From Candidatus Omnitrophica bacterium UBA5776 (GTDB taxonomy: Bacteria > Omnitrophota > Gorgyraeia > Gygaellales > Profunditerraquicolaceae), in contig DIEK01000001.1 of assembly GCA_002418595.1 (NCBI GenBank), forward strand, positions 14,048 to 37,690: DNA of 23,643 nucleotides, in the 5' to 3' direction. Below the pieces are notes generated by a model, which was not told the DNA's origin, did no database searches, and saw only the letters and a list, made by a program, of their open reading frames with translations. Shown here one piece after another: positions 6,779-23,643 of this stretch. The translations under genes were made by a program, and so were the position numbers. How positions within the stretch are numbered: the stretch's first letter is position 1; every line of letters starts with the position of its first letter.

Positions 6779-6779
6779 T

Positions 6780-7778: not shown

Positions 7779-7780
7779 AC

Positions 7781-8770
7781 TTACTCCAGTCCGTACCTTT
7801 TCAGTGCCGCGCGGAGAATATTCCCCACGATCTGTTCGTAAGAGATCCCGCCGGCCTCCGCCACCAGAGGGAAGACGTCGGCGGTCGACAACGAAGGCAG
7901 CGGGTTTATCTCCAGCACATACGGCCTGCCTTCCGGGTCAACCCTGAAATCCACCCTGCCGAAATCGCGGCAGTCTACCGCGAGGTAAGTTTTCAACGCC
8001 AGCTCGCCCAGGGTTTTTTCCAGCTCACGGCTGATGCGCGCCGGACAGATGTATTCTATCCTGTCGGAAGCGATACTGCTGAACGTATAGAATTTATCGT
8101 TAAGCTTCACCTTGCCGTCTATCTTCACCTGAACGGCCGGCATCACCTCGACCGGGTCGTTACCGACGATTGCCACGGTAAATTCCCGTCCGGCAACGAA
8201 TTCTTCCACCAAGGCAGGCTGATGGTATGCGTTCAGGATATACTCCGCCTGTTTCTTAAGCTCTTCCGGAGTCTCCACCCGCGAACTCTCGCTCAAACCC
8301 TTAGAAGACCCTTCAAACCTCGGTTTCACGATCAAGGGAAACCGCAGGCGGCCGGTCTCCAGCATGGAAGAGGCGTCCTTGATCTCTATCGAATTGGGGG
8401 TCGGGATACCGTCGGCCTGGAATATCTTCTTGGCCATTACCTTGTCAAGAGTAAGCCCAAGCGTCAGCGCGTCGGCGCCCACATAAGGGATACCCGACAT
8501 CTCCAAAAGCATCGGCACCTGCGATTCCCTGTTTCTCCCCTCCGTGCCTTCGGAGATATTGAAAACTATATCGACGTCGAGATTGTTCATCCTTTCCAAA
8601 AGGGACGATACGTTGCCGATCTTCTCCACCTTATATCCCTGGGACTCGATGGCGTCCACCAGCACGTCTATGGTTGACGGATGATCGAATTCCGCGTTGG
8701 CGTCGGGAGGATCCCCTTCCCTGAATTCGTAATCTGTTTTTAGATCGTACGTCAGTCCTACTCTTTTCAT
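7781..8770 (-). CDS. ATP-grasp ligase, D-Ala-D-Ala ligase-like (copy 1)
   Basis: First gene of the kamA operon (329 aa), paralogous to the next gene and with the same architecture: VFNISEG (about 69-75) and RESQVPMLLE in the N-domain, IPYVGAD, the grasp loop EGSSKG at 153-158, LVEEFVAGREFTV, RVDF and YVLEINPLPSLS near the C-terminus. The start is ATG 8770, preceded by GAGGGG at 5-6 bp; a longer frame opens 15 codons upstream but reads through the leader and starts without a ribosome site. Two tandem, non-identical ligases suggest sequential ligations or a heteromeric enzyme rather than a recent duplication. Like copy 2 it lacks the classical Ddl HG..GEDG motif. Transcription probably begins at the promoter at 8919-8947. 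Confidence 0.85.
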   Translation of the reverse strand: MKRVGLTYDLKTDYEFREGDPPDANAEFDHPSTIDVLVDAIESQGYKVEKIGNVSSLLERMNNLDVDIVFNISEGTEGRNRESQVPMLLEMSGIPYVGADALTLGLTLDKVMAKKIFQADGIPTPNSIEIKDASSMLETGRLRFPLIVKPRFEGSSKGLSESSRVETPEELKKQAEYILNAYHQPALVEEFVAGREFTVAIVGNDPVEVMPAVQVKIDGKVKLNDKFYTFSSIASDRIEYICPARISRELEKTLGELALKTYLAVDCRDFGRVDFRVDPEGRPYVLEINPLPSLSTADVFPLVAEAGGISYEQIVGNILRAALKRYGLE

Positions 8771-8821
8771 TCTGCCCCTCGAAATCCTTCCGTTTCCCGT
8801 CGAAAAACAACGCAACAGATA

Positions 8822-10189: not shown

Positions 10190-11320
10190 ATATTAATCTT
10201 TTTGCGCCCCTTCATTTCCCCTGAAGCCTTTCCGACGGCCGGAGCCGTTTATTTAAATCTGCTTCTGGCCTGTTTATGCGCGCTGTTGTGCCTCTTTTTG
10301 CTGGACAAAAGGAGACGCGGCAAGGCGGAAACGGCATCCTTACTGCCGGCAGCCCTCTTTATAATCGCAATACTACCCTCGGCCTTTCACGGAAACGCGG
10401 ACGGAGCCGCGCTGTTGATAAACCAACTGGCGGGATTTTCCGCTTGCCTGCTCGTCTCCCGGATGGATAAGGAACGGACATCGCGGATAATAGGCGCTAT
10501 CACGGCGGCCGGAGCGGGAATAGCGGTCATCGCCCTTTATCAGTACTTTTACGGATTCGGCCACCTGGCGGAATACATGGCGAAGAACGAAATGTCCGGC
10601 GGCATCGCAAGCGATTATCTGGGGTCAAAACGGGTATTCGCCCCTTTCGTAACGTCCAACGCGCTGGCCGGATTCCTGGCCATGGTCATACCTCTGCGAA
10701 TGGCCGGCAGAAAAACGGTGCTGTCTTCTTTACTACTGATCGTCCCGGCCTTCCTGCTGGCGAAATCCCTGGGGGCGACGGCCGCGCTCTTCTGCGGGAC
10801 GTTGCTTTTTCTCTCTCTTTCAAGGAACAAGTTCAAGAAAGCGGCCCTGGCCGTTCTGCTGCTTGCCGGGGTCTTTATAGCGGCTGTTTTCGTCTTACGT
10901 TCTACGGGGAGCCAATCCCCGGTTTTCTCCCTGCATTCGCGTCTCGTTTACTGGAGAGAAATCGCGCTGGCCATCAAAAATTCGCCCGTATGCGGGAACG
11001 GAACGGGCAACTGCGCCGGCTCGGCCTCTTCTTTCGCCCACAATCTTTTTCTTCAGCTCTGGTGCGAGCTCGGCATCCCGGGAACAGCCGCGTTCGCCTG
11101 GTTCATTCTCTCTACGGCATGGAAGGCATGCGCGCATATACGCCGCAGCGGGGACGATAATTATCTTCTGGTATTCTGCGCCTGGACGGTATTTCTAGTC
11201 CACAACATGGCCGACTTCACTTTCTTCCTTCCGCAGATATCATTCATCTGGTGGCTAACCGGCGGGATGCTCATTTCAAAGCCTGATCTAACGGAAGTCC
11301 CCGCTCCTTCTTCTCCTTAA
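10172..11320 (+). CDS. O-antigen ligase/polymerase-like membrane protein (Wzy_C)
   Basis: 382-aa polytopic membrane protein with about 10-12 hydrophobic segments along its length. The Wzy_C-like loop at about residues 245-310 has R-x-x-YW-x-x-A (SRLVYWREIALAI), a PVCGNGTGNC glycine segment and FAHNLFLQLWCELGIPG, the pattern shared by WaaL-type O-antigen ligases and related polymerases. These enzymes transfer or polymerise undecaprenyl-linked glycans on the periplasmic side. No Shine-Dalgarno precedes ATG 10172. The 3' end overlaps the convergent MFS gene by 50 bp, an unusual antisense overlap in which the last 16 codons are read on both strands. It pairs functionally with the divergent glycosyltransferase. 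Ligase versus polymerase cannot be decided. Confidence 0.78.
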   Translation: MFTPLLILIFLRPFISPEAFPTAGAVYLNLLLACLCALLCLFLLDKRRRGKAETASLLPAALFIIAILPSAFHGNADGAALLINQLAGFSACLLVSRMDKERTSRIIGAITAAGAGIAVIALYQYFYGFGHLAEYMAKNEMSGGIASDYLGSKRVFAPFVTSNALAGFLAMVIPLRMAGRKTVLSSLLLIVPAFLLAKSLGATAALFCGTLLFLSLSRNKFKKAALAVLLLAGVFIAAVFVLRSTGSQSPVFSLHSRLVYWREIALAIKNSPVCGNGTGNCAGSASSFAHNLFLQLWCELGIPGTAAFAWFILSTAWKACAHIRRSGDDNYLLVFCAWTVFLVHNMADFTFFLPQISFIWWLTGGMLISKPDLTEVPAPSSP

Positions 11321-12428
11321 GCAGTTTCCCGGACAAGAGAACGAACACCGCCAGGGCGATACCAAACACAACAAACCCTGCGGTGAAGCTCCTGCGTAAG
11401 AGAAAGCTGCCGACCAGCACCCCCGCCCCGCCGGAAAGGAACCGCAAACTGCTGTTAAGGCTCGCCGCTTCATTCAACACCGATGACGGCAAGTCGGCCA
11501 GCAACGTGGAGACCCCGGCATGATTGAAGGCCCAGCCAAACCCCCAGATGAACATGCTTACGCTTAGCAGCCAGGTGCCAGGGCGCAGAACGAGAAGGAA
11601 CAGCCCGACGGTCATCAATAATACGCCCGTCCCGGCCGCCTTTCGTCTGCCGGCATGATCGGCGAACCTGCCCCCGGCAGCCTCTCCCGGAATGCCGCTT
11701 ATACCGCTCAATGTCATCAGGGAGCTTATCTCCAGCTGTCCCCGGTTTAAGACGCTGGAGAAGTAAACGCCCAGCCACTGCTGGACTCCGTGATAGAGCA
11801 GGCTGATCGCCGCAATATACAGACAGACGCCGGCAACTCTCCTGTATTTCAGCGCCGTAACATACTGCATTCGGAAACGCTCCCTGTCCGGGAACTCTTC
11901 CGGCAGCGAAAAATAGAGCGGGAATAACAGTATGAACCCGGCGGCGGCGGGAATAAAGAAGACCCACCGCCAGGGCAGGACGCCGCTCAAAAACACGCCT
12001 ATCATCGATGAAACAAAAGTGCTGCTGAAAAAAAGGCCTATGTACCCTCCTCTTTTCTCCTTGGGGACGCGGCGGGAGATCATGATTATGGCCAGCGGCG
12101 TTACGGAAGCCCCGGTAACGCCGGCCAGGACGCGGCAGAGACATAACTGGCCAAAAGAAAAACTCAACGCCGCCGCCAGGTTGACGCAGGAGAAAACCGA
12201 TAGACAGGCGAGTTCGATCTTTTTCGTGCCGTAAGCCCTTACCAGGGGACCGTAAAACAACGCGGAGAGACCGTAAGGCAGCATATACAGCCAGATAATC
12301 TTTCCCGCCGCGAACTGAGGGATGGAAAAAGCTGATGCGATGGAGGGGACCAAAGCGGCGGAGGCGGCCACATTGAAAGAGAGGACCGCGCCTCCGGCGC
12401 AGAGGATAAAAAAAAGCTTCTTGCTCAC
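11271..12428 (-). CDS. MFS transporter (probable exporter of the PKS product)
   Basis: 385-aa major facilitator superfamily protein, 12 predicted TM helices in two halves. The loop 2-3 motif A region is GPLVRAYGTKKIELA; TM4 has LCRVLAGVTGASVTPLAI, and the second half repeats the motif as GRFADHAGRRKAAGT. This resembles the drug/proton antiporter group. It starts with GTG 12426-12428, overlapping the SRPBCC stop in a GTGA junction, so it is the translationally coupled last gene of the polyketide operon. Export of the polyketide or self-resistance is the natural inference. Its 3' end overlaps the convergent O-antigen-ligase-like gene. Confidence 0.88.
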   Translation of the reverse strand: MSKKLFFILCAGGAVLSFNVAASAALVPSIASAFSIPQFAAGKIIWLYMLPYGLSALFYGPLVRAYGTKKIELACLSVFSCVNLAAALSFSFGQLCLCRVLAGVTGASVTPLAIIMISRRVPKEKRGGYIGLFFSSTFVSSMIGVFLSGVLPWRWVFFIPAAAGFILLFPLYFSLPEEFPDRERFRMQYVTALKYRRVAGVCLYIAAISLLYHGVQQWLGVYFSSVLNRGQLEISSLMTLSGISGIPGEAAGGRFADHAGRRKAAGTGVLLMTVGLFLLVLRPGTWLLSVSMFIWGFGWAFNHAGVSTLLADLPSSVLNEAASLNSSLRFLSGGAGVLVGSFLLRRSFTAGFVVFGIALAVFVLLSGKLLKEKKERGLPLDQALK

Positions 12429-12865
12429 TTAGCGGATTCTGCTTCGATCACCCGTTTGAATATCCGCAGATTATCTCTGGAATGGGTATTGATGAAACCT
12501 TCCACCTGGCTGTCGCCGAACTTAGCTGAAGGATCCATTTCGAAATGCTGTATCCAGCTCAACTCGATTCCCTGCGGTTTGCGGGTATACAACCAGATGA
12601 TCTTCATGTATTTAAAAGGGAACAGCGGTTCCTGCCGCTCGGCGTAAGCGAACCCCTGCTTTTTCATAAGCAGACGCCGGGAGACCCAGCTCTTGCCTTC
12701 GTCATCGGTCAGCCGGAAAGTTATCTTATTGCCTTCCCTGTTTATTATCTCCGCCCCGGTGTATTCTCCGCCGAACAGCTCCGTCCAGCGAGGGATATCG
12801 TTGGAGATATCGAACACCTTCTCGTACGGCGCTTCGATGATTATGGAATTTACCGTATGCCCCAT
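12425..12865 (-). CDS. SRPBCC polyketide cyclase/aromatase-like protein
   Basis: 146-aa START/SRPBCC-fold protein with a hydrophobic pocket. It begins with the typical NSIIIEAPYEKVFDISNDIPRWTEL, where the strand and helix precede the conserved Trp; then comes the curved sheet (about 45-120) and a long C-terminal helix (about 122-143). In type II PKS clusters members of this family (TcmN, WhiE aromatase types) bind the poly-beta-keto chain and direct its first cyclisation and aromatisation; here that is inferred from the fold and context. A GAGGAGG Shine-Dalgarno lies 6 bp before ATG 12865, and the repeat array begins directly upstream of that ribosome site. The stop overlaps the MFS start. 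Confidence 0.82.
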   Translation of the reverse strand: MGHTVNSIIIEAPYEKVFDISNDIPRWTELFGGEYTGAEIINREGNKITFRLTDDEGKSWVSRRLLMKKQGFAYAERQEPLFPFKYMKIIWLYTRKPQGIELSWIQHFEMDPSAKFGDSQVEGFINTHSRDNLRIFKRVIEAESAK

Positions 12866-12878
12866 TTAAAACCTCCTC

Positions 12879-13324
12879 AATGAGCGCATAACTTATGGAG
12901 CGCCTGTAAAGGCGCGAACATAAGTTATTTGCGCGAATTGATCCCGAGAGCTGCAAGTAAATCTCCCTATAGAGATTTACGCAGCGTTTGCGAACGGGAC
13001 AATGAGCTTCTTCACATCCTGAGCAACTTCCACGCAGAGCAATGAGCGCATAACTTATGGAGCGCCTGTAAGGCGCGAACATAAGTTATTTGCGCGAATT
13101 GATCCCGAGAGCTGCAAGTAAATCTCCCATAGAGATTTACGCAGCGTTTGCGAACGGGACAATGAGCTTCTTCACATCCTGAGCAACTTCTACGCAGAGC
13201 AATGAGCGCATAACTTATGGAGCGCTTGTAAGGCGCGAACATAAGTTATTTGCGCGAATTGATCCCGAGAGCTGCAAGTAAATCTCCCATAGAGATTTAC
13301 GCAGCGTTTGCGAACGGGACAATG
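12879..13324 (-). repeat. Three tandem ~160-bp structured repeats inside the PKS operon
   Basis: Units begin with AATGAGCGCATAACTTATGG at 12879 (162 bp), 13041 (160 bp) and 13201 (124 bp, truncated). Copies 2 and 3 differ at one base over the shared 124 bp; copy 1 has one extra base in each of two hairpin loops. Each unit holds a long hairpin (ATAACTTATG pairing CATAAGTTAT, enclosing GCGCCT/AGGCGC and flanked by GCGC/GCGC) and a second one (GTAAATCTC/GAGATTTAC within CTGC/GCAG and TCCCG/CGGGA). A 40-bp spacer links the units. The array fills the gap exactly between the cyclase stop (13335) and the SRPBCC ribosome site. It is non-coding: unit lengths break the frame. Confidence 0.92.
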
Positions 13325-13334
13325 ACTACCCTAC

Positions 13335-14135
13335 TCACTCCAGTATGGCCGCCACTCTCGCCCAGGCCGCTCCGGTGTTGCGTATTCTCACCGGGAAACA
13401 TACAATCTTAAAACCGCAGGCGGGCAGTTTATCCAGATTGGCCAACCGCTCTATGTGCGCGTATTCTTTCTTGCGCCCGTAGAAATGCGCCGGCCAGAGC
13501 ACGCTCGCTTCGCCGGTGCGCAGGAAATCCGCCATCATATATTTATACGGCCTGTCGAATCCCAGGGTGTCTATCCCCAGCACTTTCACTCCTTTATTCA
13601 GCAGGAATTCGATGGCCTGGGGGCTGATCCCGGGATAACGGTAAAGATACTCGTTTGTCCCGAAATATTTGTCGGCCCCGGTCCTCAGAAGCACGATCAT
13701 ACCCGGTTTCAAGACGCAACCGGTCTTCTCCAGCGCCGCAGCCGCGTCAGCTCCGGTGACCGATTCCCCCGGCTTTTTGAAGGTAATATCCAGCACGATA
13801 CCTTCCGCGAAGCACCATTCAAGAGGTATCTCATCGGCATAACGCGAAGGCATGGATTGCGAAGACGTTCCGTAATGGAATGTGAAGTCTATGTGAGTGC
13901 CGGTATGCACCGGGGCGTGCACGGTCTCCAGGGAAAGGAATTCACCGTCCGGGAGATCCTCCGGTTTGATTATCCTGCGCCCGAAAAGGAACGCCAGCCT
14001 GCCGGGAAAGCTCTTCTTCATCATCACCCAGTTCAGGCGGCGCACCCCTTTTTTATGCCCGAGCCTTTCTATCCAGAAAGGGTGGGCTTCCGGAGCCCGG
14101 TCGTCTATGGGGAGGCTGAGATCTATTATTTTCAT
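13335..14135 (-). CDS. Cyclase-family metal-dependent hydrolase (PF04199 type)
   Basis: 266-aa protein of the kynurenine formamidase/putative cyclase family. The metal-binding signature H77-x-GT-H81-x-D83-x3-H87 (HTGTHIDFTFH) is intact, except that the Pro usual before the last His is Thr. It begins MKIIDLSLPI, the family's usual first strand, and also has LKPGMIVLLRTG and VKVLGIDTLGFD segments. In aromatic polyketide clusters homologues catalyse or assist later ring closures, while elsewhere they hydrolyse N-formyl or cyclic amides. Position next to the ACP (2-bp gap) favours a polyketide role. The 200-bp-plus repeat array lies downstream before the next gene. Confidence 0.85.
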   Translation of the reverse strand: MKIIDLSLPIDDRAPEAHPFWIERLGHKKGVRRLNWVMMKKSFPGRLAFLFGRRIIKPEDLPDGEFLSLETVHAPVHTGTHIDFTFHYGTSSQSMPSRYADEIPLEWCFAEGIVLDITFKKPGESVTGADAAAALEKTGCVLKPGMIVLLRTGADKYFGTNEYLYRYPGISPQAIEFLLNKGVKVLGIDTLGFDRPYKYMMADFLRTGEASVLWPAHFYGRKKEYAHIERLANLDKLPACGFKIVCFPVRIRNTGAAWARVAAILE

Positions 14136-14137
14136 CT

Positions 14138-14371
14138 TCAGGCGCTCCTGGAGGAGACCACCTTTTCTATCTCTTCCAGGGTGGAGAATTTGGTTATCTC
14201 CTTTTGGCTCAATTTGACGCCGAACTCTTTTTCCAGGGCGATCACAGCTTCCACCATCTCCGTGGAATCCACACCTATGCTGTCGTAAAGCCTGGCTTCT
14301 TCCTTTAATTCTTCCGGCTTAACCCTCAAAAGCTCGACAAAAACTTTCTTTATTCTGTCTTTTATGTCCAT
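14138..14371 (-). CDS. Acyl carrier protein of the type II PKS
   Basis: 77-aa four-helix carrier protein that would hold the growing polyketide on 4'-phosphopantetheine. The attachment site is S36 in SIGVDSTEM (D35-S36, the DS motif), with the usual helix 1 (DRIKKVFVELL) and helix 3/4 (KFSTLEEIEKVVSS). The start is ATG 14371 with GGAGGGGAG just upstream; the same frame stays open further back, but that part is antisense-like low-complexity translation of the radical SAM gene end. It sits between the radical SAM gene (17-bp gap) and the cyclase (2-bp gap), so it is dedicated to this cluster rather than a fab-locus ACP. Confidence 0.93.
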   Translation of the reverse strand: MDIKDRIKKVFVELLRVKPEELKEEARLYDSIGVDSTEMVEAVIALEKEFGVKLSQKEITKFSTLEEIEKVVSSRSA

Positions 14372-14388
14372 AGTCTCCCCTCCCGGCT

Positions 14389-15849
14389 TCAAATATGCAC
14401 TTCGCCCTTGGTGGCGCCGGCTTCCCACTTGCCGACCCCGGCCATGACGTCCTGGAAACAGAGCTTGGCCAGAATGTCGAAGTTGCTCTCCATTATCCTG
14501 TTTATCCTCCCCGGCTTGGAAAAGAATTCCCTCATACACCAGGAACCGAGCCTGCCCAATTCCTCTTTGCTTAAATGATTTGTGGGGATCACCGGATGCA
14601 GGAAATCCCATTTGCTGAAATCAACCCTGCGCGGATCTATCCAGTTGTTCTTCAGCGCGATCCTCCACATCGGCGAATTCGGCGCCGGGGTCACGTAACC
14701 TATCCAGAGTATGTCCGGATCGACTTCGTCGGTGAATTCATACCTCTGTTTGATAATCTTCTCGTCGTCGTAATCGAAGCCCATCATAATGTCGGCGACC
14801 ACGGCGATCTCGTTGCGGCGCAGGATCTCTATCGTCTTCTTTATCTGCTCTATGGTGATGCCTTTGGCTATCTTTTTCAGTTCCTCCGGGGTGGTGACCT
14901 CGATGCCGAAAACCCCGGTGAACAGCCCGGTCTGCTTCATCAAGGGCAGGATCTCTTCGCAGTTCACCCAATCCACAGCCCTGCCCAGCGAGACCCATTT
15001 AATGGGGATATCCTTTTTCAGCTTCAGCTCGCAGAACTTCTTTACCCTCGCCGGGTTCACGTTGAAATTGTCGTCCTGAATAACCACGACCTTAACGCCG
15101 TATTTCTTATGCAGTATCTCCATTTCCTCTATGACGCGCTCCGGAGACTTGGCGCGCCATTTAAGGAAGTCGGAAGGAGACCGCGGATCGTACTGATCCC
15201 ATTCGTAACAAAAAGTGCAGGCTGAAGGGCATCCGCGCGAGGTTACCATCTCCACGAAAGGTTTCCAGTGGGTGTGCCCCACGTATTTGTCCATGGGGAA
15301 AAGATCGTAAGCCGGCAACGGCAGGCTGTCCAGGTCTTCCAGCAGTTTTTTATGCGGTCCCATGACTATCTCTTTGCCGATGCGCGAAGTGACCCCGGCC
15401 ACGGCCCTGAGATCTTTTTCCCCTGATACGGCTTCGATAAGATCGTAGAACGACTCTTCTTCCCCCATGACCACGAAATCCACGGCCGGATTGTCTTCCA
15501 GCGTCGGGACCGGCATGGCGGAATACCATAATCCTCCGAATACTATCTTTACTTTAGACAGTTCCTCTTTGATCAACCTCGCCGTGTCGTTGAAATGGGA
15601 GATGATCCCGTATCCGCCGTAAGAATGCAGCATATCACCCAGGACGACCAGGTCGGGATTGCTTTTTTTGATCCTCTCCAGCATCTCCGGTGTATCTATC
15701 TCCAGAGCCCGGCAATCCAGCACTTCCAGGTCGGAATATCCTTTTTCCCTGACATAGGCGGCCCAGTGCGCGTAAAGCTGATTCGGCCCGAGATGTTTTC
15801 CGTGGGTGGCCCAAGCCCCAACTTTAGGCATTACGAACATTATTTTCAC
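14389..15849 (-). CDS. B12-binding-domain radical SAM enzyme
   Basis: 486-aa protein with an N-terminal cobalamin-binding Rossmann domain (about 1-140; FVMPKVG, NPDLVVLGDMLHSYGG, VKIVFGGLWYSAMP) and a radical SAM barrel with C207-x3-C211-x2-C214 in SRGCPSACTFCYEW. A segment VVVIQDDNFNVN and a C-terminal extension with APNSPMW are typical of the BchE/class-B methylase superfamily. The canonical DxHxxG cobalamin motif is not exact (D72-x2-H75-x2-G78), common in this group. Likely reactions are methylation at an unreactive carbon or a ring-forming/oxidative step on the polyketide. It starts at GTG 15847-15849 after AAGGAGG (7 bp). It lies between the KS-beta and ACP genes, where tailoring genes are unusual. 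Confidence 0.88.
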   Translation of the reverse strand: MKIMFVMPKVGAWATHGKHLGPNQLYAHWAAYVREKGYSDLEVLDCRALEIDTPEMLERIKKSNPDLVVLGDMLHSYGGYGIISHFNDTARLIKEELSKVKIVFGGLWYSAMPVPTLEDNPAVDFVVMGEEESFYDLIEAVSGEKDLRAVAGVTSRIGKEIVMGPHKKLLEDLDSLPLPAYDLFPMDKYVGHTHWKPFVEMVTSRGCPSACTFCYEWDQYDPRSPSDFLKWRAKSPERVIEEMEILHKKYGVKVVVIQDDNFNVNPARVKKFCELKLKKDIPIKWVSLGRAVDWVNCEEILPLMKQTGLFTGVFGIEVTTPEELKKIAKGITIEQIKKTIEILRRNEIAVVADIMMGFDYDDEKIIKQRYEFTDEVDPDILWIGYVTPAPNSPMWRIALKNNWIDPRRVDFSKWDFLHPVIPTNHLSKEELGRLGSWCMREFFSKPGRINRIMESNFDILAKLCFQDVMAGVGKWEAGATKGEVHI

Positions 15850-15884
15850 GGCAAATCCTCCTTATCTTCACAATGCGTATATTA

Positions 15885-17114
15885 TTACGCCTTCTCGACC
15901 ACGAGGGCGGAATTTATGCCTCCCCTGCCGCGGGAGATGACAAGGGCCTTATCCACTCTTCTCTCCAGCGCTTTATCCTTTACGTAGTTCAGCCACGCGG
16001 GATCCGGATCGCGTAAATTGAGCGTCGGCGGAATCAGCGAATGCTCCATGGCAAGCAGAGCGATGATCACGTCCAGCGCCCCCGACGCGCCCAGCAGGTT
16101 GCCGAACATCGATTTCGGGCAGCTAACAGGGACGTCCCCGGCCTGTTCGCCGAACACCATTTTTATGGCCTCCGCTTCGCTTTGATCCCAGACGTCGTCG
16201 GCCATACCGTCCAGGCTTATATAATCTATGTCTTCCGGAGCGATGCCCGCCTCATCGAGCGCGTTTTTTATGGCACGTGCCAACTGCCGGCCGGATCTAT
16301 CCGGGTTGATCCTGTCCACCCCGTCGCAACTGGTGCCGTAACCGGTTATTTTTCCCATTAATGCGGCGCCCCTGTCTTTGGCGCGCTCGAGTTCCTCCAT
16401 AACCATAATTGCCGCGCCCTCGCCTACCACGAAACCCGCCCTGCTTTTATCAAAAGGCCGGTATGCGGCGGCTGGATCGGAGTTCTCCGTGCATAACCCT
16501 CCATAAGTATTACAACAGAGCAAGGCGTAAGGCGTCACCGGAGCCTCCATCCCGCCGGCCAGAATCAGGTCAAGCTTTCCTTTCAAGAGGGTCTTCCTGG
16601 CGTATCCCACCGCCATCAGGGAACCGGCCCTGTCCGCCACTACCGTCTTGCTGAACCCCTTTATCCCGTAGTAAATGGAAACCTGCCCCTGCGGGGCGGC
16701 CGGGAACCACGCGGAAGCCATGTAAGGAGAGACCCCTTCTCTCCCTTCTATGTAGAGGTCCCTTAGCTCCGTTTCGGCGTAAAGCCAGCCTCCGATGGCG
16801 TTGCCCAGGAATATCCCCACCCTCTCCGGATCCTCTTTTTTTATGTCTATGCCGGCTTCCTGCAAAGCCAATTCCGACGCCACCAGGGCCATGTGAGAAA
16901 ATGCGTCTATCTTTTTCAACAGGCGCTCCGACACGTGGCTGTATTTGTCCAGGTCGTCTATCTGACCGGCTATACGCGAGGGGTATTTGGAGGCGTCGAA
17001 ACGCGTTATCTCCCTGACAAAAGACCTTCCGGCTTTTATGTTGGCCCAGAACTGCCTTCTTCCTATCCCGGAAGGCGTGACTACCCCTATACCCGTGACT
17101 GCTATGGTTTTCAT
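15885..17114 (-). CDS. KS-beta / chain-length factor (catalytically dead ketosynthase)
   Basis: 409-aa thiolase-fold ketosynthase homologue. The FabF-like frame is complete (TGIGVVTPSGIG start, FDKSRAGFVVGEGAA, SLIPPTLNL, a GRGGINSALV end). All three catalytic residues are gone: the active Cys position falls in VADRAGSLMAVG (D161/R162 instead of Cys), the first His is D302 (SLDGMADD) and the second is N339 (SMFGNLLG), while the Lys K334 is kept. That pattern is what defines a chain-length factor that pairs with a KS-alpha to set polyketide size; actinobacterial ones usually replace Cys by Gln. The gene starts immediately after the KS-alpha stop (0-bp gap), as in classical type II PKS operons. 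Confidence 0.9.
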   Translation of the reverse strand: MKTIAVTGIGVVTPSGIGRRQFWANIKAGRSFVREITRFDASKYPSRIAGQIDDLDKYSHVSERLLKKIDAFSHMALVASELALQEAGIDIKKEDPERVGIFLGNAIGGWLYAETELRDLYIEGREGVSPYMASAWFPAAPQGQVSIYYGIKGFSKTVVADRAGSLMAVGYARKTLLKGKLDLILAGGMEAPVTPYALLCCNTYGGLCTENSDPAAAYRPFDKSRAGFVVGEGAAIMVMEELERAKDRGAALMGKITGYGTSCDGVDRINPDRSGRQLARAIKNALDEAGIAPEDIDYISLDGMADDVWDQSEAEAIKMVFGEQAGDVPVSCPKSMFGNLLGASGALDVIIALLAMEHSLIPPTLNLRDPDPAWLNYVKDKALERRVDKALVISRGRGGINSALVVEKA

Positions 17115-18380
17115 CTATCCTTCGAACCTCCGCAGGACCAGCGACGAATGTATTCCGGAGAAACCGCTGCTGGTCTTAAGTATCACGTCAACCTTTTTCC
17201 GGCGCGCCTGGTTCGGAATATAATCCAGGTCGCAAAGAGGGTCTCTCTCCTCCTGGTTGATCGTGGGAGGCAAAAGATCCTTCTCGAAGATCATGGAACA
17301 GACCGCCAGTTCTATGGCGTTGGCGGCGGCAAGAGGATGTCCGATCATGGATTTAAAAGAGCTCATCGGAAGCTTATAGGCGTAATCGCCGAAGATCATC
17401 TTGTAGGCGCTGGTCTCGAATATATCGTTCATCCTGGTGGAAGAGCCGTGCGCGTTTATATAGCAGACGCCGCGCGGCCCGACCCCGGCGTCCTGCAAAG
17501 CCAGCCGTATGCAATTGGCCATGGCGGCCCCGTCGGCAGGCAGGTCGGTCATATGAAAGGCGTTACAGCTGGTGCCGAAACCGGCGACCTCTGCGTAGAT
17601 ACGCGCGTTCCTTTTCAAGGCGTGCTCCATCTCTTCCAGTATCAGGATACCCGCCCCTTCGGAAAGGACAAATCCGTCGCGTTTGGCGTCGAACGGACGG
17701 CTCGCTTTTTCCGGGACGTCGTTCCTTGCCGAGAGCACGTTCACCACGTCGAAAGAGCCGAAGGTGACCGGAGTTATCGGCGCCTCTGCCGCGCCGGCCA
17801 GCATAACATCATGTTCCCCGTCCTGTATGCTCTCCAGGGCGAACCCCAGAGAATCGGTGCCGGCGGTGCAGCCGGTGGATAATGTATTGCAGACGCCTTT
17901 AAGGCCGTATTTCCATGATAATTCTATCGACGGAGTATTGAACATGGCGGCATCGTAAAGATCCGGCCTGACGAGCAAAGGGTCTATCGGTTTTCTGCCG
18001 TTGTCCGTGACGAGCACGAATTCCTCTTCCATATATTTGGTGCCGCAGATGGCGTTGGCGAGACAGACGCCGCAGCGTTCGGGGTCCTGCGAAGACAATT
18101 CCAGCCCGCTGTCCCTGACCGCCATATCGGCTGCCACCACCGCGAACTGCACGTATCTGTCCATACGCACCGCGTCGCTATGGCTCAGTCCGAGTTTGAA
18201 CGGATCGAAATCCCTAACCTGCGCAGCTATCCTGGTGTTGAAAATAGAGACGTCGAATTCGTCCACCAGCCTGACCGCAGACTTGCCGCCGGACATCGCC
18301 TTCCAGACCGCCTCCTTGCCTATGCCGTTCGGCGAGATCACGCCGATCCCGGTTATAACCACCCTGCGCCTATTCTTCAT
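17115..18380 (-). CDS. KS-alpha, type II polyketide beta-ketoacyl-ACP synthase
   Basis: 421-aa condensing enzyme for decarboxylative Claisen elongation of an ACP-bound chain. The catalytic residues are C171 (LSTGCTAGTDSLG), H311 (NAHGSSTRMND) and H348 (KSMIGHPLAA), with K343. Other family marks are GIGVISPNGIG, FDAKRDGFVLSEGAG and LLPPTINQEERDP. A FabF identity is conceivable from one gene, but the adjacent dead partner, private ACP and cyclases make it a polyketide KS-alpha. Its ATG overlaps the TIGR04076 stop (ATGA), and it abuts the KS-beta gene, giving equimolar partners. No acyltransferase or phosphopantetheinyl transferase is in the window; both would have to come from elsewhere in the genome. 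Confidence 0.93.
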   Translation of the reverse strand: MKNRRRVVITGIGVISPNGIGKEAVWKAMSGGKSAVRLVDEFDVSIFNTRIAAQVRDFDPFKLGLSHSDAVRMDRYVQFAVVAADMAVRDSGLELSSQDPERCGVCLANAICGTKYMEEEFVLVTDNGRKPIDPLLVRPDLYDAAMFNTPSIELSWKYGLKGVCNTLSTGCTAGTDSLGFALESIQDGEHDVMLAGAAEAPITPVTFGSFDVVNVLSARNDVPEKASRPFDAKRDGFVLSEGAGILILEEMEHALKRNARIYAEVAGFGTSCNAFHMTDLPADGAAMANCIRLALQDAGVGPRGVCYINAHGSSTRMNDIFETSAYKMIFGDYAYKLPMSSFKSMIGHPLAAANAIELAVCSMIFEKDLLPPTINQEERDPLCDLDYIPNQARRKKVDVILKTSSGFSGIHSSLVLRRFEG

Positions 18381-18982
18381 TCCGAATAGTTCTCTTTCTT
18401 TTCCCGCGAACGGGAGACTTTAAAGACGATATTGCCTCCGTCCGGGCAAGTGACCGTGTCTATTCCGTCGGGATCGTCCATAAAAAAGAATTTAGCGCCG
18501 AAATTGAGCGCGAAGAGCGCCGGGAAAGCGGTGTGAAAAGCGGCTCCGCAGAAACCCGGGATGCATTTTAGGCCGGTGGTCTCGAATTTATCCCCCACTT
18601 TGTACCCGTAGGCGCATTTGCCCTTGGCCTTGACCACCTCTATGGCCATTTTCTTGGGCGCGGGGCCGGAATAAGCCGGATCTTTGGGAACGTTCTCTAC
18701 CGCTCCGGTCTTATCCATTATCTCGACCTTGAATTCAAGTTTGCCTCCGTCCGGGCAGGTTACCTGAAGGGAACGCTGATTGTCCCTGAAAGGGAACTTC
18801 GCCCCGAAGCTCAAAGAGTATATTATCGGGAACAGCACGTGCGCCAGCCCCAGACAAAAATGCTCCGGAGGATGCGTAAAATCCTCAAGAATTATCTCGT
18901 CGCCCGGTTTATAACCGTGATAACACTCTCCGTGGACGTTGATAACGGTAAGTTTCAATTTTGGGAAAGGGGTCTTTACCAT
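18377..18982 (-). CDS. Duplicated TIGR04076-family protein
   Basis: 201-aa protein made of two similar units (about residues 10-88 and 112-190), each with a strand, a Cys-x2-GYKxGD segment (C20 / C123), a short Cys-bearing helix (C43 / C140, C145), a FxxLxFGAKF hydrophobic stretch and a VTCPDGG motif (C76 / C179). This is the TIGR04076 pattern; single-domain members are about 85-100 aa, so this is an internal fusion. Function is unknown in the family; the paired Cys suggest metal or cluster binding. No signal peptide. GGAG precedes ATG 18982. Its stop overlaps KS-alpha start, so it is co-translated with the ketosynthases, suggesting an accessory or redox role in the pathway. Confidence 0.75.
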   Translation of the reverse strand: MVKTPFPKLKLTVINVHGECYHGYKPGDEIILEDFTHPPEHFCLGLAHVLFPIIYSLSFGAKFPFRDNQRSLQVTCPDGGKLEFKVEIMDKTGAVENVPKDPAYSGPAPKKMAIEVVKAKGKCAYGYKVGDKFETTGLKCIPGFCGAAFHTAFPALFALNFGAKFFFMDDPDGIDTVTCPDGGNIVFKVSRSREKKENYSE

Positions 18983-18990
18983 AATTCTCC

Positions 18991-19995
18991 TTAATCCAGG
19001 AAACGGGCCGTTTCGCGCAGAAGTTCCTCTTTCCGGAAAAACCTGCCTCCGCGTTCTACGTCGTGCACCATCCGCACCAACAGTTCGTTCAACCCGGCCT
19101 TTTCTCCAGCAGCGGCGGCGATACGCACGAATTCCCCGTTAAAATAATCGATCTCGGAAGGCCTGCCTTTTTTGATGCTCTGCAATATCGAGCCGTAAAG
19201 CGGCTCGCCGCTCAATCCGGACATTATTCCGTGAAAAACTCCTGCGGCCTGCTCTAAAGGCATAGCCACCAGGCCGAAGACGCGTTCCGCCGGAAAACCC
19301 GGCAAGGATTCCGGCCTGAGCCCCGCTTTCAAAACCGCCCGCAAGCCCTCTTTCCAGACGGCGGCGCTTATCCCGCAGACACGCAGGTCGCTGAAAGCCT
19401 CCTGCATAGTCGTCCCCAGTATGGCGGGGATGCAGTTGCCGGCATTGATGAAAACCTTGAGCAGTTTCATACCCTTTATATTGCCGGCGGACTGAACGGG
19501 GAATACGGCGGAGAACAGCTCTTCCGCCTCGGTAACGCCGCTGCCCGAGCATCCATCATACCCGCCGAGGACCAGGCTTCCTTCGAAATTGTGCACGATC
19601 CTGCCGGGCTGTAAAGAAGTCGCCCCGAACATAACTATACCCGAAACTATGCTCTCCGGCCGGCAATACTCCAGAAGCAATTCCTCGGCGCGCAGTCCGT
19701 TCTGCGTGGTAACTACCGTTTTCGCCAGCAAGGCCCTGGGATTTGCCGACGCCGCTTCTTGTATATCCTGGGTTTTTACGGCGACCAGACAGAGATCGGG
19801 AATGAAATCTATTTTCTCCGTGACCGGGACTTTGACTGTCTTTTCCCCGCGCACTCCGGAAACGGATAATCCATGTTTTCCCAGGATATCCAGAACAGAA
19901 GCCTTAACGGCAACCGTAACGTCCCTGCCGGCGAGTTTAAGGTAAGCGGCGCACAGCCCGCCGATCGCCCCCGCGCCGATCACCGCTATCTTCAT
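18991..19995 (-). CDS. Ketopantoate reductase-like NADPH oxidoreductase (PanE/ApbA family)
   Basis: 334-aa enzyme with an N-terminal NADPH Rossmann fold (AVIGAGAIGG, residues 4-13; a K74 region VAVKTQD) and the C-terminal helical domain of 2-dehydropantoate 2-reductase. The family's catalytic Lys and Asn match K180 and N184 in LLKVFINAGN, and the conserved EIDYFNGEFV glutamate segment is present. A housekeeping pantothenate role is possible, but its ATGA overlap with the PCP_red gene and its place directly ahead of the ketosynthases suggest it supplies the missing ketoreductase activity or another 2-oxo reduction in the polyketide pathway. This assignment rests on context only. Confidence 0.83.
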   Translation of the reverse strand: MKIAVIGAGAIGGLCAAYLKLAGRDVTVAVKASVLDILGKHGLSVSGVRGEKTVKVPVTEKIDFIPDLCLVAVKTQDIQEAASANPRALLAKTVVTTQNGLRAEELLLEYCRPESIVSGIVMFGATSLQPGRIVHNFEGSLVLGGYDGCSGSGVTEAEELFSAVFPVQSAGNIKGMKLLKVFINAGNCIPAILGTTMQEAFSDLRVCGISAAVWKEGLRAVLKAGLRPESLPGFPAERVFGLVAMPLEQAAGVFHGIMSGLSGEPLYGSILQSIKKGRPSEIDYFNGEFVRIAAAAGEKAGLNELLVRMVHDVERGGRFFRKEELLRETARFLD

Positions 19996-20279
19996 TTACC
20001 GGCCTGCCGCGCGGCGTTGTCCGAAAGAGGCAGTCCGTGTTTACGGTAGTCGAATCCGCTCTGCTCCAGGACCCGGATCATCATACTATAGAACGCCAGA
20101 GGGACCTCGCTGAAGAAAGCGCTCACCACGTCCGCCTCCTCAACCCGGGCGGCATTACGCCGCGCGGCGTTAGCTTCGGCCTTCCTGACCACCGCCTCTT
20201 CGGCTATCCTCCTGTGAAAAACCGGCAGTTTGGCGATGACGGACTTGAATCGTGTCTCCGTGGATATATCCCAACGCAT
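19992..20279 (-). CDS. PCP_red-domain small protein
   Basis: 95-aa protein resembling the PCP_red domain found at the C-terminus of the light-independent protochlorophyllide reductase B subunit and as stand-alone proteins in many non-phototrophs. It opens MRWDISTETRFKSVIAKLPVF, then a helix HRRIAEEAVVRKAEA and a second helical part VEEADVVSAFFSEVP. The start is set at ATG 20279, where domain similarity begins, but no good Shine-Dalgarno precedes it; a GTG eight codons upstream or an ATG 33 codons upstream are formal alternatives that read through a GC-rich hairpin region. First gene of the PKS operon, overlapping panE-like by ATGA. Role in the pathway unknown. Confidence 0.68.
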   Translation of the reverse strand: MRWDISTETRFKSVIAKLPVFHRRIAEEAVVRKAEANAARRNAARVEEADVVSAFFSEVPLAFYSMMIRVLEQSGFDYRKHGLPLSDNAARQAGK

Positions 20280-20428: not shown

Positions 20429-20612
20429 GCACGAGCGAACACTTAGCTTTCCAATAAGCTAAGGTGTACCGCACGAGCGAACACTTTCACACTGGTGAAC
20501 ACCTGCCTCTCAATTAAGGCAGGGTGTTATTCCAATAAGCTAAGGTGTACCGCACGAGCTAACACTTTCACACAAGTGAACACCTGCCTCTCAATTAAGG
20601 CAGGGTGTTATT
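20429..20612. repeat. 81-bp palindrome-rich tandem repeats (2 copies plus a partial)
   Basis: Copies at 20451-20531 and 20532-20612 differ at 3 of 81 positions. Each contains AACACCTGCCT/AGGCAGGGTGTT (8-nt loop) and TTCAC/GTGAA hairpins. The two differences in the latter hairpin fall in its loop. A partial copy sharing CGCACGAGCGAACACTT lies at 20429-20445. Spacing and unit form exclude CRISPR. Confidence 0.88.
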
Positions 20613-20696
20613 CCAATTGGCCAAGGTGTAACACACAGGTGTATACTTGGCCATCCAATTAGCCAAGGTGTAACACACAGGTGTATACTTGGCCAT
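20613..20696. repeat. 42-bp palindromic tandem repeats (2 copies)
   Basis: Copies at 20613-20654 and 20655-20696 differ at one base. Each is nearly one hairpin, GGCCAAGGTGTA pairing TATACTTGGCC around an ACACACAGGTG loop. The start CCAATTGGCCAAGGTGTA is homologous to the start of the 81-bp unit (CCAATAAGCTAAGGTGTA), and a further degenerate start occurs at 20697, so the two unit types share a module. Confidence 0.88.
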
Positions 20697-20712
20697 CCGA
20701 TAGGCTAAGGTA

Positions 20713-20908: not shown

Positions 20909-21163
20909 TCAGGCGGTAATGCTCACCAGCCTGGTTTTTACGCCCGGTAAGGCATCCAGCTCTTTCTTAAAACTCTTTATACGCGCCTCCTGCGGCAGCA
21001 GCTCCAATATGATAAGCCCGGCATCGGAACAGACGTTCTTACCCGAGTCATGGAGACCCAGCCTGGTTTTAACCAGACAACCGTACCTGGTCAAAACCTC
21101 CTGGACGGACAAAGCCTTCTTCAATCTGCTGCCTACCATCACTATAAGCAGAACCTTGCGCAT
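20909..21163 (-). CDS. TM1266-like iron-only hydrogenase system regulator (ACT-like fold)
   Basis: 84-aa small protein of the ferredoxin/ACT-like fold resembling the putative regulators linked to [FeFe]-hydrogenase gene sets (TM1266 type). It shows the beta strand RKVLLIVMVG, the helix before EVLTRYGCLVKTRLGL, a central DAGLIILELL strand and a closing helix-strand KSFKKELDALPGVKTRLVSI. ATG 21163 is preceded by AGGAGGG at 5 bp; an in-frame TTG lies just upstream. It starts 19 bp after the end of the HEPN-like gene, in the same direction. No hydrogenase gene is in the window. Other ACT-fold metal or nickel sensors are alternatives. Confidence 0.7.
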   Translation of the reverse strand: MRKVLLIVMVGSRLKKALSVQEVLTRYGCLVKTRLGLHDSGKNVCSDAGLIILELLPQEARIKSFKKELDALPGVKTRLVSITA

Positions 21164-21182
21164 CAATCCCTCCTTCCGGAGA

Positions 21183-22318: not shown

Positions 22319-23643
22319 TCAAGCCGCTTTTTTCTTCAGGCGCGTTTCAAACACGGCGTAAAGGGTCGGGATAAACAGCAGTGTTATCAGCGTGGAAACG
22401 CTTAAACCCCCGATCATAGTCACGCCCAGCGGCTGCCAGCTTTCCGAACCTTCCCCGTTCGATAACGCCAGCGGCATCAGGCCGACCAGGGTTGTTATGG
22501 TGGTCATCAACACCGGGCGCAGCCTGTCGCCGCCCCCTCTGATGACCGCCTCGGACAGAGCCAACCCGCGCGCGCGCAGGATATTGATGTAGCTTATCAG
22601 GACTATAGCGTTGTTGACCACGATACCCATCAACATCACCACCCCGAGGAAAGAAATTATGTTTAGGGTCATGCCGCTGATGATGAAAGCGAATATTACC
22701 CCCACGAAGGTGAACGGTATGGAAAACATGACTATGAACGGGTCTATCAGAGACTCGAACTGCGCGGCCATGACCATGTAAACGAGGATAATGCCGAGCG
22801 CCAGCAGCAGCGCCAGGTCGCGGAAGGCCTTGGTCTGTTCTTCCGCTTCACCTCCGAGCTCCAGGGTAATGTCCGACGGCAGGGTAAGTTTATTCAACTC
22901 CCGCTTGACGTCTTCGACGATTTTGCCGGAAGAACGTTTGTAGGCGTTACATTCCACGCGCACCACGCGCTCCCTGTTCTTGCGTTCTATCTCCTGCGGC
23001 ACGAGCACCTCGCTGATACCTGCGATATTGGAAAGCCTCACCTGCCTGCCGGGGTCCACCCCGCCGCCGGAAGCCGGATAGACCGTGATGCTTTCGATAT
23101 CCTCCGGTTTGAGCCTGAACTTCTCCTCGGCGCGCACGCTGATGTCGTAGGTCTTGCCTTTCTCGCGATAATGCCCGGCGGTATTTCCTTCGATAAAGGC
23201 CTTGACCGTATCGGTTATCATCTGCATGTTGAGGCCCAGAGAAGACGATTTCTCCCTGTCCACGTCTATGCGCAGTTCCGGACGGTTGGCTTCCCTGGAG
23301 ATGCTCACGTCCACGGCGCCCGGTATATTTTCCATTATATCCTTGATCTGCGCGGCCACGGCGTCGGTATCCTGGAAAGAATGACCTATGATCTCCACCT
23401 GGACGCTCTTGCCGCCGGAACCGGAGATCACCCTTCCCATCGGGTTACCGGTGGTTATGTCCGTTCTTACCACCCCGGGCAGGGCGCGGATCCTGCCGCG
23501 CAGTATCTGCCCGATCTCTTTAACGGAACGTTCCCTTGCCGTCTTGGGGACGAGTTTGGCGCCGCAGGTAATTATGTGCGACCCTGAGGCGTTCCCCATG
23601 CTCTTTCCCACGCCGGATACTTCGCCGCTCCTGACATAATAAA
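22319..23643 (-). CDS. RND efflux pump, C-terminal part (5' end outside the window)
   Basis: A second HAE1-type RND pump, of which the last about 441 residues are present. The reading frame is open to the right edge, so the GTG at 23609-23611 is an internal codon and not a start. Visible are the second porter domain (ITTGNPMGRV, VDREKSSSLGLN, TAGHYREKGKTYDISVR), and TM8-TM12 with LVYMVMAAQFESLIDPFIVMF, MGIVVNNAIVLISYIN in TM10 (no AcrB lysine) and FIPTLYAVFE at the end. Similarity in arrangement to the complete pump at the left is clear, but sequences differ enough to be a different paralogue. The PII-like gene follows. Confidence 0.93.
   Translation of the reverse strand, partial: YYVRSGEVSGVGKSMGNASGSHIITCGAKLVPKTARERSVKEIGQILRGRIRALPGVVRTDITTGNPMGRVISGSGGKSVQVEIIGHSFQDTDAVAAQIKDIMENIPGAVDVSISREANRPELRIDVDREKSSSLGLNMQMITDTVKAFIEGNTAGHYREKGKTYDISVRAEEKFRLKPEDIESITVYPASGGGVDPGRQVRLSNIAGISEVLVPQEIERKNRERVVRVECNAYKRSSGKIVEDVKRELNKLTLPSDITLELGGEAEEQTKAFRDLALLLALGIILVYMVMAAQFESLIDPFIVMFSIPFTFVGVIFAFIISGMTLNIISFLGVVMLMGIVVNNAIVLISYINILRARGLALSEAVIRGGGDRLRPVLMTTITTLVGLMPLALSNGEGSESWQPLGVTMIGGLSVSTLITLLFIPTLYAVFETRLKKKAA

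Follow-up and report, generated by a model that had tools for sequence, protein, structure and literature searches.

We examined a 23,643-nucleotide stretch of DNA (hereafter the window) from Candidatus Omnitrophica bacterium UBA5776 (assembly GCA_002418595.1, contig DIEK01000001.1, positions 14,048 to 37,690 of the forward strand; phylum Omnitrophota, class Gorgyraeia, family Profunditerraquicolaceae), whose genome is a 1.40-Mb draft of 83% completeness. Its minus strand carries, at window positions 11271-20279, a run of genes resembling the core of a type II polyketide synthase (PKS) pathway. As had been described by an earlier reading of the letters without database searches (the sequence-only reading), ten open reading frames (ORFs) were found in this run, and Pfam and NCBIfam scans assigned named families to nine of them. 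From the 20279 end they encode a small helical protein, a PanE/ApbA-family reductase, a TIGR04076 doublet, the ketosynthases (KS) KS-alpha and KS-beta, a B12-binding radical S-adenosylmethionine (SAM) protein, an acyl carrier protein (ACP), a PF04199 cyclase-family protein, an SRPBCC protein and a major facilitator superfamily (MFS) transporter. Many junctions were as tight as that reading had described, with 4-bp overlaps at 19992-19995, 18377-18380 and 12425-12428 and the KS-alpha and KS-beta genes abutting at 17115/17114; three were wider, namely 35 bp from KS-beta to the radical SAM gene, 17 bp from there to the ACP gene, and a repeat-filled 469 bp between the cyclase and SRPBCC genes.

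KS-alpha (17115..18380, minus strand) has the triad Cys171-His311-His348, and Cys-His-His was retained in all 39 sequences aligned. When the PDB was searched, its top solved relatives were the actinorhodin KS (1tqy_A, 403 bits) and AntD (379 bits), with the best FabF at 360 bits. KS-beta (15885..17114, minus strand) resembles a chain-length factor (CLF) and bears the dead triad Arg162-Asp302-Asn339, of which Arg162 was found in 40 of 41 sequences (the other having Lys) and Asp302 and Asn339 in all 41, so that the predicted pairing of a KS-alpha with a dead KS-beta was borne out. Lys replaces Arg in KS-betas of the f48 and f8 lineages. Among the plasmid matches of KS-beta listed, 14 of 15 were annotated as chain-length factors. 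In a protein search it was 97% identical to a protein that NCBI assigns to a Candidatus Omnitrophica bacterium; that search covered close kin, the best 120 of 7997 scored candidates, every one at least 75% identical. The Gln that classical actinobacterial CLFs have at the Cys position is replaced by Arg in the window, and five actinobacterial CLFs showed four Gln and one Gly. Arg also occupies this site in KS-betas of Streptomyces resistomycificus, Ktedonobacter, Azospirillum and Pyxidicoccus; here it is a group trait, not peculiar to this cluster.

Phylogenetic trees placed both ketosynthases outside FabF, in the KS-alpha and CLF clades, which is the outcome that the sequence-only reading had expected from such a check. 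A 57-row tree was built from 15 of 60 loci, selected for spread, and chosen references. In this tree, with support of 100/98 each, 15 Omnitrophota KS-alphas grouped with type II KS-alphas and 16 KS-betas with CLFs, both apart from FabF; rows resembling fatty-acid synthases were separated with 84/89 support, and one aryl-polyene KS was placed on the PKS side. A 74-row tree, in which FabF formed its own clade (100/98), agreed in the placement of KS-alpha and KS-beta; it omits the aryl-polyene, NodE, FabB, Serratia and highly reducing rows, loci L050, L088, L099 and L105, sequences containing X (the L034 KS-alpha), partial KS-alphas (L148, L182) and a partial KS-beta (L141). The best NCBIfam model for both proteins was fabF (TIGR03150), with 461.3 bits for KS-alpha and 381.8 bits for KS-beta, both below the cut-off of 493.75; KS-alpha passed the broader NF005589 (449.8 bits, cut-off 387). 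The one other ketosynthase found in this genome is FabF-like and lies on contig C19. The features of a type II PKS are present together: a KS-alpha with Cys-His-His in the type II KS clade, a paired KS-beta without the Cys in the CLF clade, and a discrete ACP. Judged by trees and residues, the KS-alpha/KS-beta pair is of type II PKS descent.

The ACP (14138..14371, minus strand; 77 aa, start codon ATG at 14371) matched PF00550 with 42 bits in a scan of 14138-14380 and carries a DS motif. One AcpS-family match was found in the draft genome, and FabD gave two partial matches at contig ends, one of them below the cut-off. The SRPBCC protein (12425..12865, minus strand; Polyketide_cyc) aligned to TcmN (2rez, 96.5 bits, E 1.1e-26) across residues 3-142 of its 146, and its Arg64, which 97% or more of 34 sequences share, aligned with Arg69 of TcmN, a position taken from the mutant entry 2res. 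Arg69 has a catalytic role in TcmN, and 2res differs from TcmN at this residue. The protein combines near full-length homology to TcmN with this Arg and is thus a TcmN-type aromatase/cyclase, making an aromatic product likely. The PF04199 protein (13335..14135, minus strand; 109.5 bits) has the motif HTGTHIDFTFH, and its closest solved structures are isatin hydrolases.

The radical SAM protein (14389..15849, minus strand) combines PF02310 and PF04055 and contains a CX3CX2C motif; its best NCBIfam model was BchE (TIGR02026; 212.7 bits, cut-off 481.35), and the ladderane-associated TIGR04072 gave 79.6 bits against a cut-off of 360. The PanE/ApbA-family reductase (18991..19995, minus strand; 334 aa) matched PF02558, PF08546 and TIGR00745 (149.6 bits, cut-off 141.35). 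The 201-aa doublet (18377..18982, minus strand) matched TIGR04076 over two stretches (103.5 bits, cut-off 33), and its AlphaFold2 (AF2) model (pLDDT 90) found no PDB match at E<=0.001. The MFS protein (11271..12428, minus strand; PF07690, 171.8 bits) is probably an exporter. Among the ten genes, Pfam detected no oxygenase families and no FabZ-type dehydratase or enoyl reductase. The first gene (19992..20279, minus strand) encodes 95 aa with an AF2 model of pLDDT 90. Nine of the ten family names given by the sequence-only reading held; the tenth, PCP_red for this protein, was set aside after the window protein and four homologues had been scanned and its fold compared. The protein did not match PF08369 (PCP_red) even at E<=5 and fell below every family cut-off, whereas among five members of its family DUF2621 was found in four (best E 7.3e-6) and PF08369 in two (best E 0.005). 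The top Foldseek match of its model was weak (2l09, E 1.2), and DUF2621/PCP_red-like is the closest description at best.

The 469-bp gap is mostly a 160-bp tandem repeat lying between the PF04199 cyclase and SRPBCC genes (12878..13325, no strand assigned; 2.8 copies, 98% matches). The repeat contains inverted arms ATAACTTATG...CATAAGTTAT; a 223-base probe matched no further copy in the genome at E<=1e-10, and an Rfam scan of the window returned no family at gathering thresholds. Two more tandem repeats, an 81-bp unit (2.2 copies) and a 42-bp unit (2.4 copies), lie upstream of the first gene at a distance of 170-430 bp (20449-20711). Farther upstream, an 85-aa protein (20909-21166) passed the CPF_0552 family cut-off of NCBIfam (93.3 bits against 85) and lies beside a 231-aa ORF with no NCBIfam match at E<=1e-5. 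A small P-II-like protein (PF00543, 21978-22274) adjoins a resistance-nodulation-division (RND) efflux gene (22319-23611), and six out of 40 loci (L040, L041, L045, L046, L052, L065) likewise have this pair upstream of their PKS core. At the other side of the window, 5585-8815 presumably holds three genes on one strand: a radical SAM gene resembling lysine 2,3-aminomutase, and after it two ATP-grasp genes resembling D-Ala-D-Ala ligases.

The run had been called complete, and this did not hold. On contig C91 of the same genome, one row encodes a short-chain dehydrogenase/reductase (SDR), a PF04909 amidohydrolase, a phosphorylase, an MtnA-like protein, an aldolase, an aldehyde dehydrogenase (ALDH) and an acyl-CoA ligase, and genes of this row are joined to the core in relatives. 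There, the core continues into the SDR and amidohydrolase genes and is accompanied by genes for a nucleoside phosphorylase, MtnA-like isomerase, SCP2-domain class II aldolase and aldehyde dehydrogenase. Locus L257, on a contig of 303 kb with a Deltaproteobacteria title, has the genes from PanE to the aldolase in a single co-directional run; a locus with a Syntrophaceae title (L258) has a similar core, with the aldolase on a different contig. The Pfam families of the dihydroxyacetone phosphate (DHAP) shunt gene set were found in locus L103, with homologues in the window's genome; the MtnA model TIGR00512 scored 197.6 bits on the L103 protein, below its cut-off of 279. The phosphorylase showed weak similarity to HpnG (54 bits, cut-off 187), and the aldolase weakly matched a model for haloarchaeal ribulose-1-phosphate aldolase. 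The amidohydrolase (L118:9965-10882 and relatives) is closest to 5-carboxyvanillate (62 bits), uracil-5-carboxylate and 2-amino-3-carboxymuconate-6-semialdehyde decarboxylases, and its metal ligands, HxH, a third His and Asp, were present in 55/55 sequences, that of the window's genome included.

To follow the genes across relatives, 60 loci were chosen by KS-beta and same-strand matches were counted, the denominators being the loci with enough sequence. The set of genes, and for the most part their order, proved conserved, a point that the sequence-only reading had raised. Matches were found for the ACP in 55/55, the cyclase in 54/54, the SRPBCC protein in 52/52, the SDR in 42/44, the amidohydrolase in 34/36, PanE and the small gene in 56/58 each, and TIGR04076 in 48/58 loci; the MFS protein matched at the set threshold in 38/60. 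The KS-alpha and KS-beta alignments lay at most 60 bp apart in 45 of 58 pairs. The radical SAM gene was matched in 55/60 loci and not in the other five, and its position varied by family: in some it lay between KS-beta and the ACP, in others either ahead of the small gene or downstream, close to the SDR. This conservation excludes a chance grouping.

The spread of the cluster was surveyed in 383 genomes of the phylum, each at least 80% complete. KS-beta orthologues (E<=1e-110) occurred in 142 of them, of which 141 belong to the window's class and one (G148) does not. In counts that take genomes as independent of descent, the amidohydrolase was present in 122/142 KS-beta-positive versus 5/241 negative genomes and the aldolase in 133/142 versus 13/241. 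Because the 383 genomes span other classes, the counts were repeated inside the window's family, likewise with genomes taken as independent: the amidohydrolase occurred in 55 of 58 KS-positive and 2 of 17 negative genomes, and the aldolase in 55 of 58 and 3 of 17. In a genome of the same genus (G001), genes for ALDH and the aldolase lie where a contig ends (L121, C22:105000-114604) and no KS-beta was found at E<=1e-110, which may reflect either a lost gene or a gap in the assembly.

A phosphorylase block that works for the radical SAM enzyme would be expected to be missing wherever a PKS cluster does not include that enzyme. Seven genomes titled as other than Omnitrophota followed this pattern. 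Three had a radical SAM protein 50-64% identical to that of the window, and the aldolase was found in 3/3; four Nitrospirae-titled genomes had no close radical SAM protein (relatives of 33-34% identity in two, no match at E<=1e-40 in two), and the aldolase was found in 0/4 at E<=1e-10. The phylum names of these and similar loci (L133, L142, L158, L182, L195, L203, L219, L148) are record titles. In the 74-row tree, rows titled Syntrophaceae, Deltaproteobacteria and Planctomycetales fell among Omnitrophota, and the Nitrospirae-titled rows were their neighbours (99/95 for KS-beta, 90/69 for KS-alpha). Because L133 and L158 fall inside Omnitrophota, both are likely misnamed, and the clusters of L142, L182, L133 and L158 may reflect gene transfer, misbinning or misnaming alike. 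Three loci with Nitrospirae titles (L195, L203, L219) carry a divergent version with a 46% identical KS-beta, PanE, TIGR04076 and an approximately 60% identical KS-alpha. Their KS-betas have Ile-Ser-Asn, and Nitrospirae-titled KS-betas have Ser or Ile at the Arg site. A pattern scan for the KS-beta motif WFPAAPQG alone found at least 113 stretches, 80 of them titled among the matches listed, and gives a sample of the spread outside the phylum.

Taken together, these data suggest that the locus supplies the core of a type II pathway to an aromatic polyketide, in which one step is catalysed by a BchE-like radical SAM protein, recognisable oxygenases are missing and a branch salvages 5'-deoxyadenosine; we assign this reading a probability of about 0.68. 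In the proposed scheme, FabD and AcpS of the cell would charge the ACP, the acyl ligase would load it, as AntG does in Photorhabdus, and KS-alpha/KS-beta would assemble a poly-beta-keto chain on it. The SDR would reduce a keto group, and the SRPBCC and PF04199 proteins, together with a cupin in some relatives, would fold and aromatise the chain. The radical SAM enzyme would carry out an oxygenation or a ring closure without O2, the amidohydrolase would remove a carboxyl group or hydrolyse an intermediate, and the MFS protein would export the product. BchE catalyses an anaerobic six-electron oxidation (available part of PMC13142503), and the radical SAM protein possibly does here what oxygen-using enzymes do elsewhere. 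Its by-product 5'-deoxyadenosine would be converted by the phosphorylase, isomerase and aldolase to adenine, DHAP and acetaldehyde, the last being oxidised by the aldehyde dehydrogenase; a phosphorylase-MtnA-aldolase set is a known variant of the DHAP shunt (PMC10986504, in its available part). The sequence-only reading had also proposed a type II PKS outside actinobacteria whose product is cyclised, probably aromatic, exported and unusually tailored; these predictions gained support, and the TcmN match strengthens the aromatic part.

Several observations weigh against this scheme. KS-beta scored higher in the PDB search with FabF (303 bits) than with ActI-ORF2 (268 bits), and the radical SAM protein fell below the cut-offs of all 19 NCBIfam models listed. 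Class Omnitrophia has aerobic members, according to the available part of PMC10066038. Beside the active-site motifs of the amidohydrolase, one site is His in 28 of 55 sequences, Tyr in 15, Asn in 6 and Ser in 6, and it is Asn in the window's genome. A His at this site is presumably catalytic in related PF04909 decarboxylases, which makes decarboxylation by the window's enzyme a guess, and the variation may mark different reactions across lineages. The phosphorylase is closest to uridine phosphorylase (125 bits, below the cut-off), and the MtnA-like and aldolase proteins are likewise below NCBIfam cut-offs, so plain nucleoside breakdown is possible. Thirteen genomes have the aldolase and five the amidohydrolase without KS-beta, and 9 and 20 KS-positive genomes lack the aldolase and the amidohydrolase, respectively; the independence assumed in these counts counts against them too. 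The seven-genome comparison is small, includes L133, which groups within Omnitrophota, and draws on metagenome-assembled genomes (MAGs) whose completeness is not stated.

The polyketide assignment could be right while the phosphorylase-MtnA-aldolase-ALDH block is a general ribonucleoside breakdown set that is merely adjacent, as the uridine phosphorylase-like phosphorylase, the weak match of the aldolase to the ribulose-1-phosphate aldolase model and its retention in 13/241 KS-negative genomes would suggest. Against this stand its presence in 133/142 KS-positive genomes and, within one family, in 55/58 versus 3/17, the way it accompanies the radical SAM gene across the seven genomes titled outside the phylum, and the co-direction of the block with the core in L257; we consider mere adjacency unlikely, though a serious contender. 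The same genes could take part in chain building instead. HpnH and MqnE attach 5'-deoxyadenosyl to their substrates, and HpnG removes the adenine. By analogy, the radical SAM enzyme would attach 5'-deoxyadenosyl to the polyketide, the phosphorylase would strip off adenine, the isomerase would open the sugar and the SCP2-aldolase would split off DHAP, leaving a two-carbon extension, after which ALDH and the ligase would activate the acid. In favour of this idea, the lipid-binding SCP2 domain is odd on an aldolase for a small sugar phosphate, and the phosphorylase is weakly HpnG-like, with ALDH and the acyl ligase next in the row. To our knowledge, no B12-type radical SAM enzyme adenosylates, and we regard the idea as improbable; if true, it would amount to a radical-based chain extension from SAM.

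The aromatic polyketide reading also has to be weighed against other products. A fatty-acid or polyene-like reducing pathway (aryl polyene, ladderane-like) with duplicated FabF genes as its ketosynthases would fit the FabF matches of KS-beta at the top of its PDB search, fabF as the best NCBIfam model for KS-alpha (461 bits) and KS-beta (382 bits), although below its cut-off, and the weak TIGR04072 match of the radical SAM protein (79.6 bits, cut-off 360). 'Ladderane' clusters have been reported in MAGs of several phyla including Omnitrophota, and from the available part of that source they may or may not be the same cluster (PMC9902471). Both ketosynthases, however, lie outside FabF in the trees, the ten genes include no FabZ-type dehydratase or enoyl reductase, and the SRPBCC protein is of TcmN type, all of which makes a reducing pathway distinctly improbable. 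Another conceivable product is a prenylated respiratory quinone with the polyketide as its head group. In the available part of PMC10066038, more than half of the Omnitrophota genomes of two classes have a 4-hydroxybenzoate prenyltransferase and no chorismate-pyruvate lyase is recorded, a gap that the polyketide would fill. UbiA-family genes were indeed found in 117/142 KS-positive versus 147/241 other genomes, and in 45/58 versus 8/17 within the window's family. This link is far looser than that of the amidohydrolase or aldolase, UbiA went unmatched at E<=0.001 in 25 KS-positive genomes, several of them with completeness above 90%, and an MFS transporter suits a secreted product. The head-group idea was dropped for this loose association and is highly improbable.

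Tailoring in type II PKS pathways is known chiefly from aerobic actinobacteria and relies on oxygenases. If the aromatic polyketide reading is true, oxygen-free aromatic polyketide chemistry would be a standing trait of this class of an uncultured phylum, many of whose members carry the genes, and not a sporadic antibiotic cluster, and the enzymes would bear on secretion by Omnitrophota, on B12 radical SAM enzymes that are not methylases, and on the handling of 5'-deoxyadenosine where a radical enzyme works in bulk. The sequence-only reading had found no nameable cluster to match, which is fair for the gene set; the KS-CLF pairs of Candidatus Omnitrophica, in contrast, were already catalogued among 14 phyla in 2023 (PMC10132072, available part). 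As far as the available parts of these sources go, a survey reported type I-III PKS clusters overall and 'ladderane' clusters in Omnitrophota MAGs (PMC9902471), an antiSMASH 2.0 table listed no polyketide cluster for OP3 bins (PMC5383146), and one cluster of unstated type was noted in Ca. Omnitrophica (PMC7472256). The main text of PMC10066038 does not mention polyketide or ketosynthase, and a type II PKS review (PMC12664062) makes no mention of radical SAM, anaerobic, non-actinobacterial or Omnitrophota systems. Searches of the openly licensed literature, supplements excluded, turned up no account of this set of genes, of how widely it occurs or of its link to salvage, and these three appear to be new.

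Comparison with known systems places the cluster among several partial relatives. BchE, the anaerobic Mg-protoporphyrin IX monomethyl ester cyclase, is the nearest curated family to the radical SAM protein, which differs in scoring 212.7 bits, below that family's cut-off of 481.35. The DHAP shunt (MtnP or MtnN/MtnK, MtnA, Ald2) shares the row of phosphorylase, MtnA-like isomerase and class II aldolase; the present row differs in the SCP2 domain of the aldolase (L103), the uridine phosphorylase-like phosphorylase and the additional ALDH and acyl ligase. The resistomycin (rem) PKS of Streptomyces resistomycificus shares the Arg at the KS-beta Cys site. In that species, homologues of KS-alpha, KS-beta, ACP, SRPBCC and PF04199 lie close together at a locus (L205) that we infer from the species name to be the rem cluster. 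Its KS-alpha and KS-beta are 50% and 41% identical to those of the window, its KS-beta triad is R-H-H as opposed to R-D-N, and the radical SAM, TIGR04076, PanE and amidohydrolase genes were unmatched in the 8 kb examined. The Photorhabdus AntD/AntE/AntF anthraquinone synthase is likewise a Gram-negative type II PKS, and AntD is the second-best solved relative of KS-alpha. In the available part of PMC6638757, the CoA ligase AntG loads the Photorhabdus ACP, AntE reportedly lacks CLF hallmark residues as well as gatekeeper ones, and the phosphopantetheinyl transferase (PPTase) AntB is reported to be needed, whereas one AcpS-family match was found in the window's draft genome. The plasmid-borne PKS of Azospirillum brasilense (L083) has a KS-beta with R-D-H and a nearly identical WFPAAPQG signature, and groups SRPBCC, SDR, KS-alpha, KS-beta and ACP genes; it differs in having antibiotic-monooxygenase-type genes, its own PPTase and RND efflux, where the window's cluster has a radical SAM protein and an MFS transporter.

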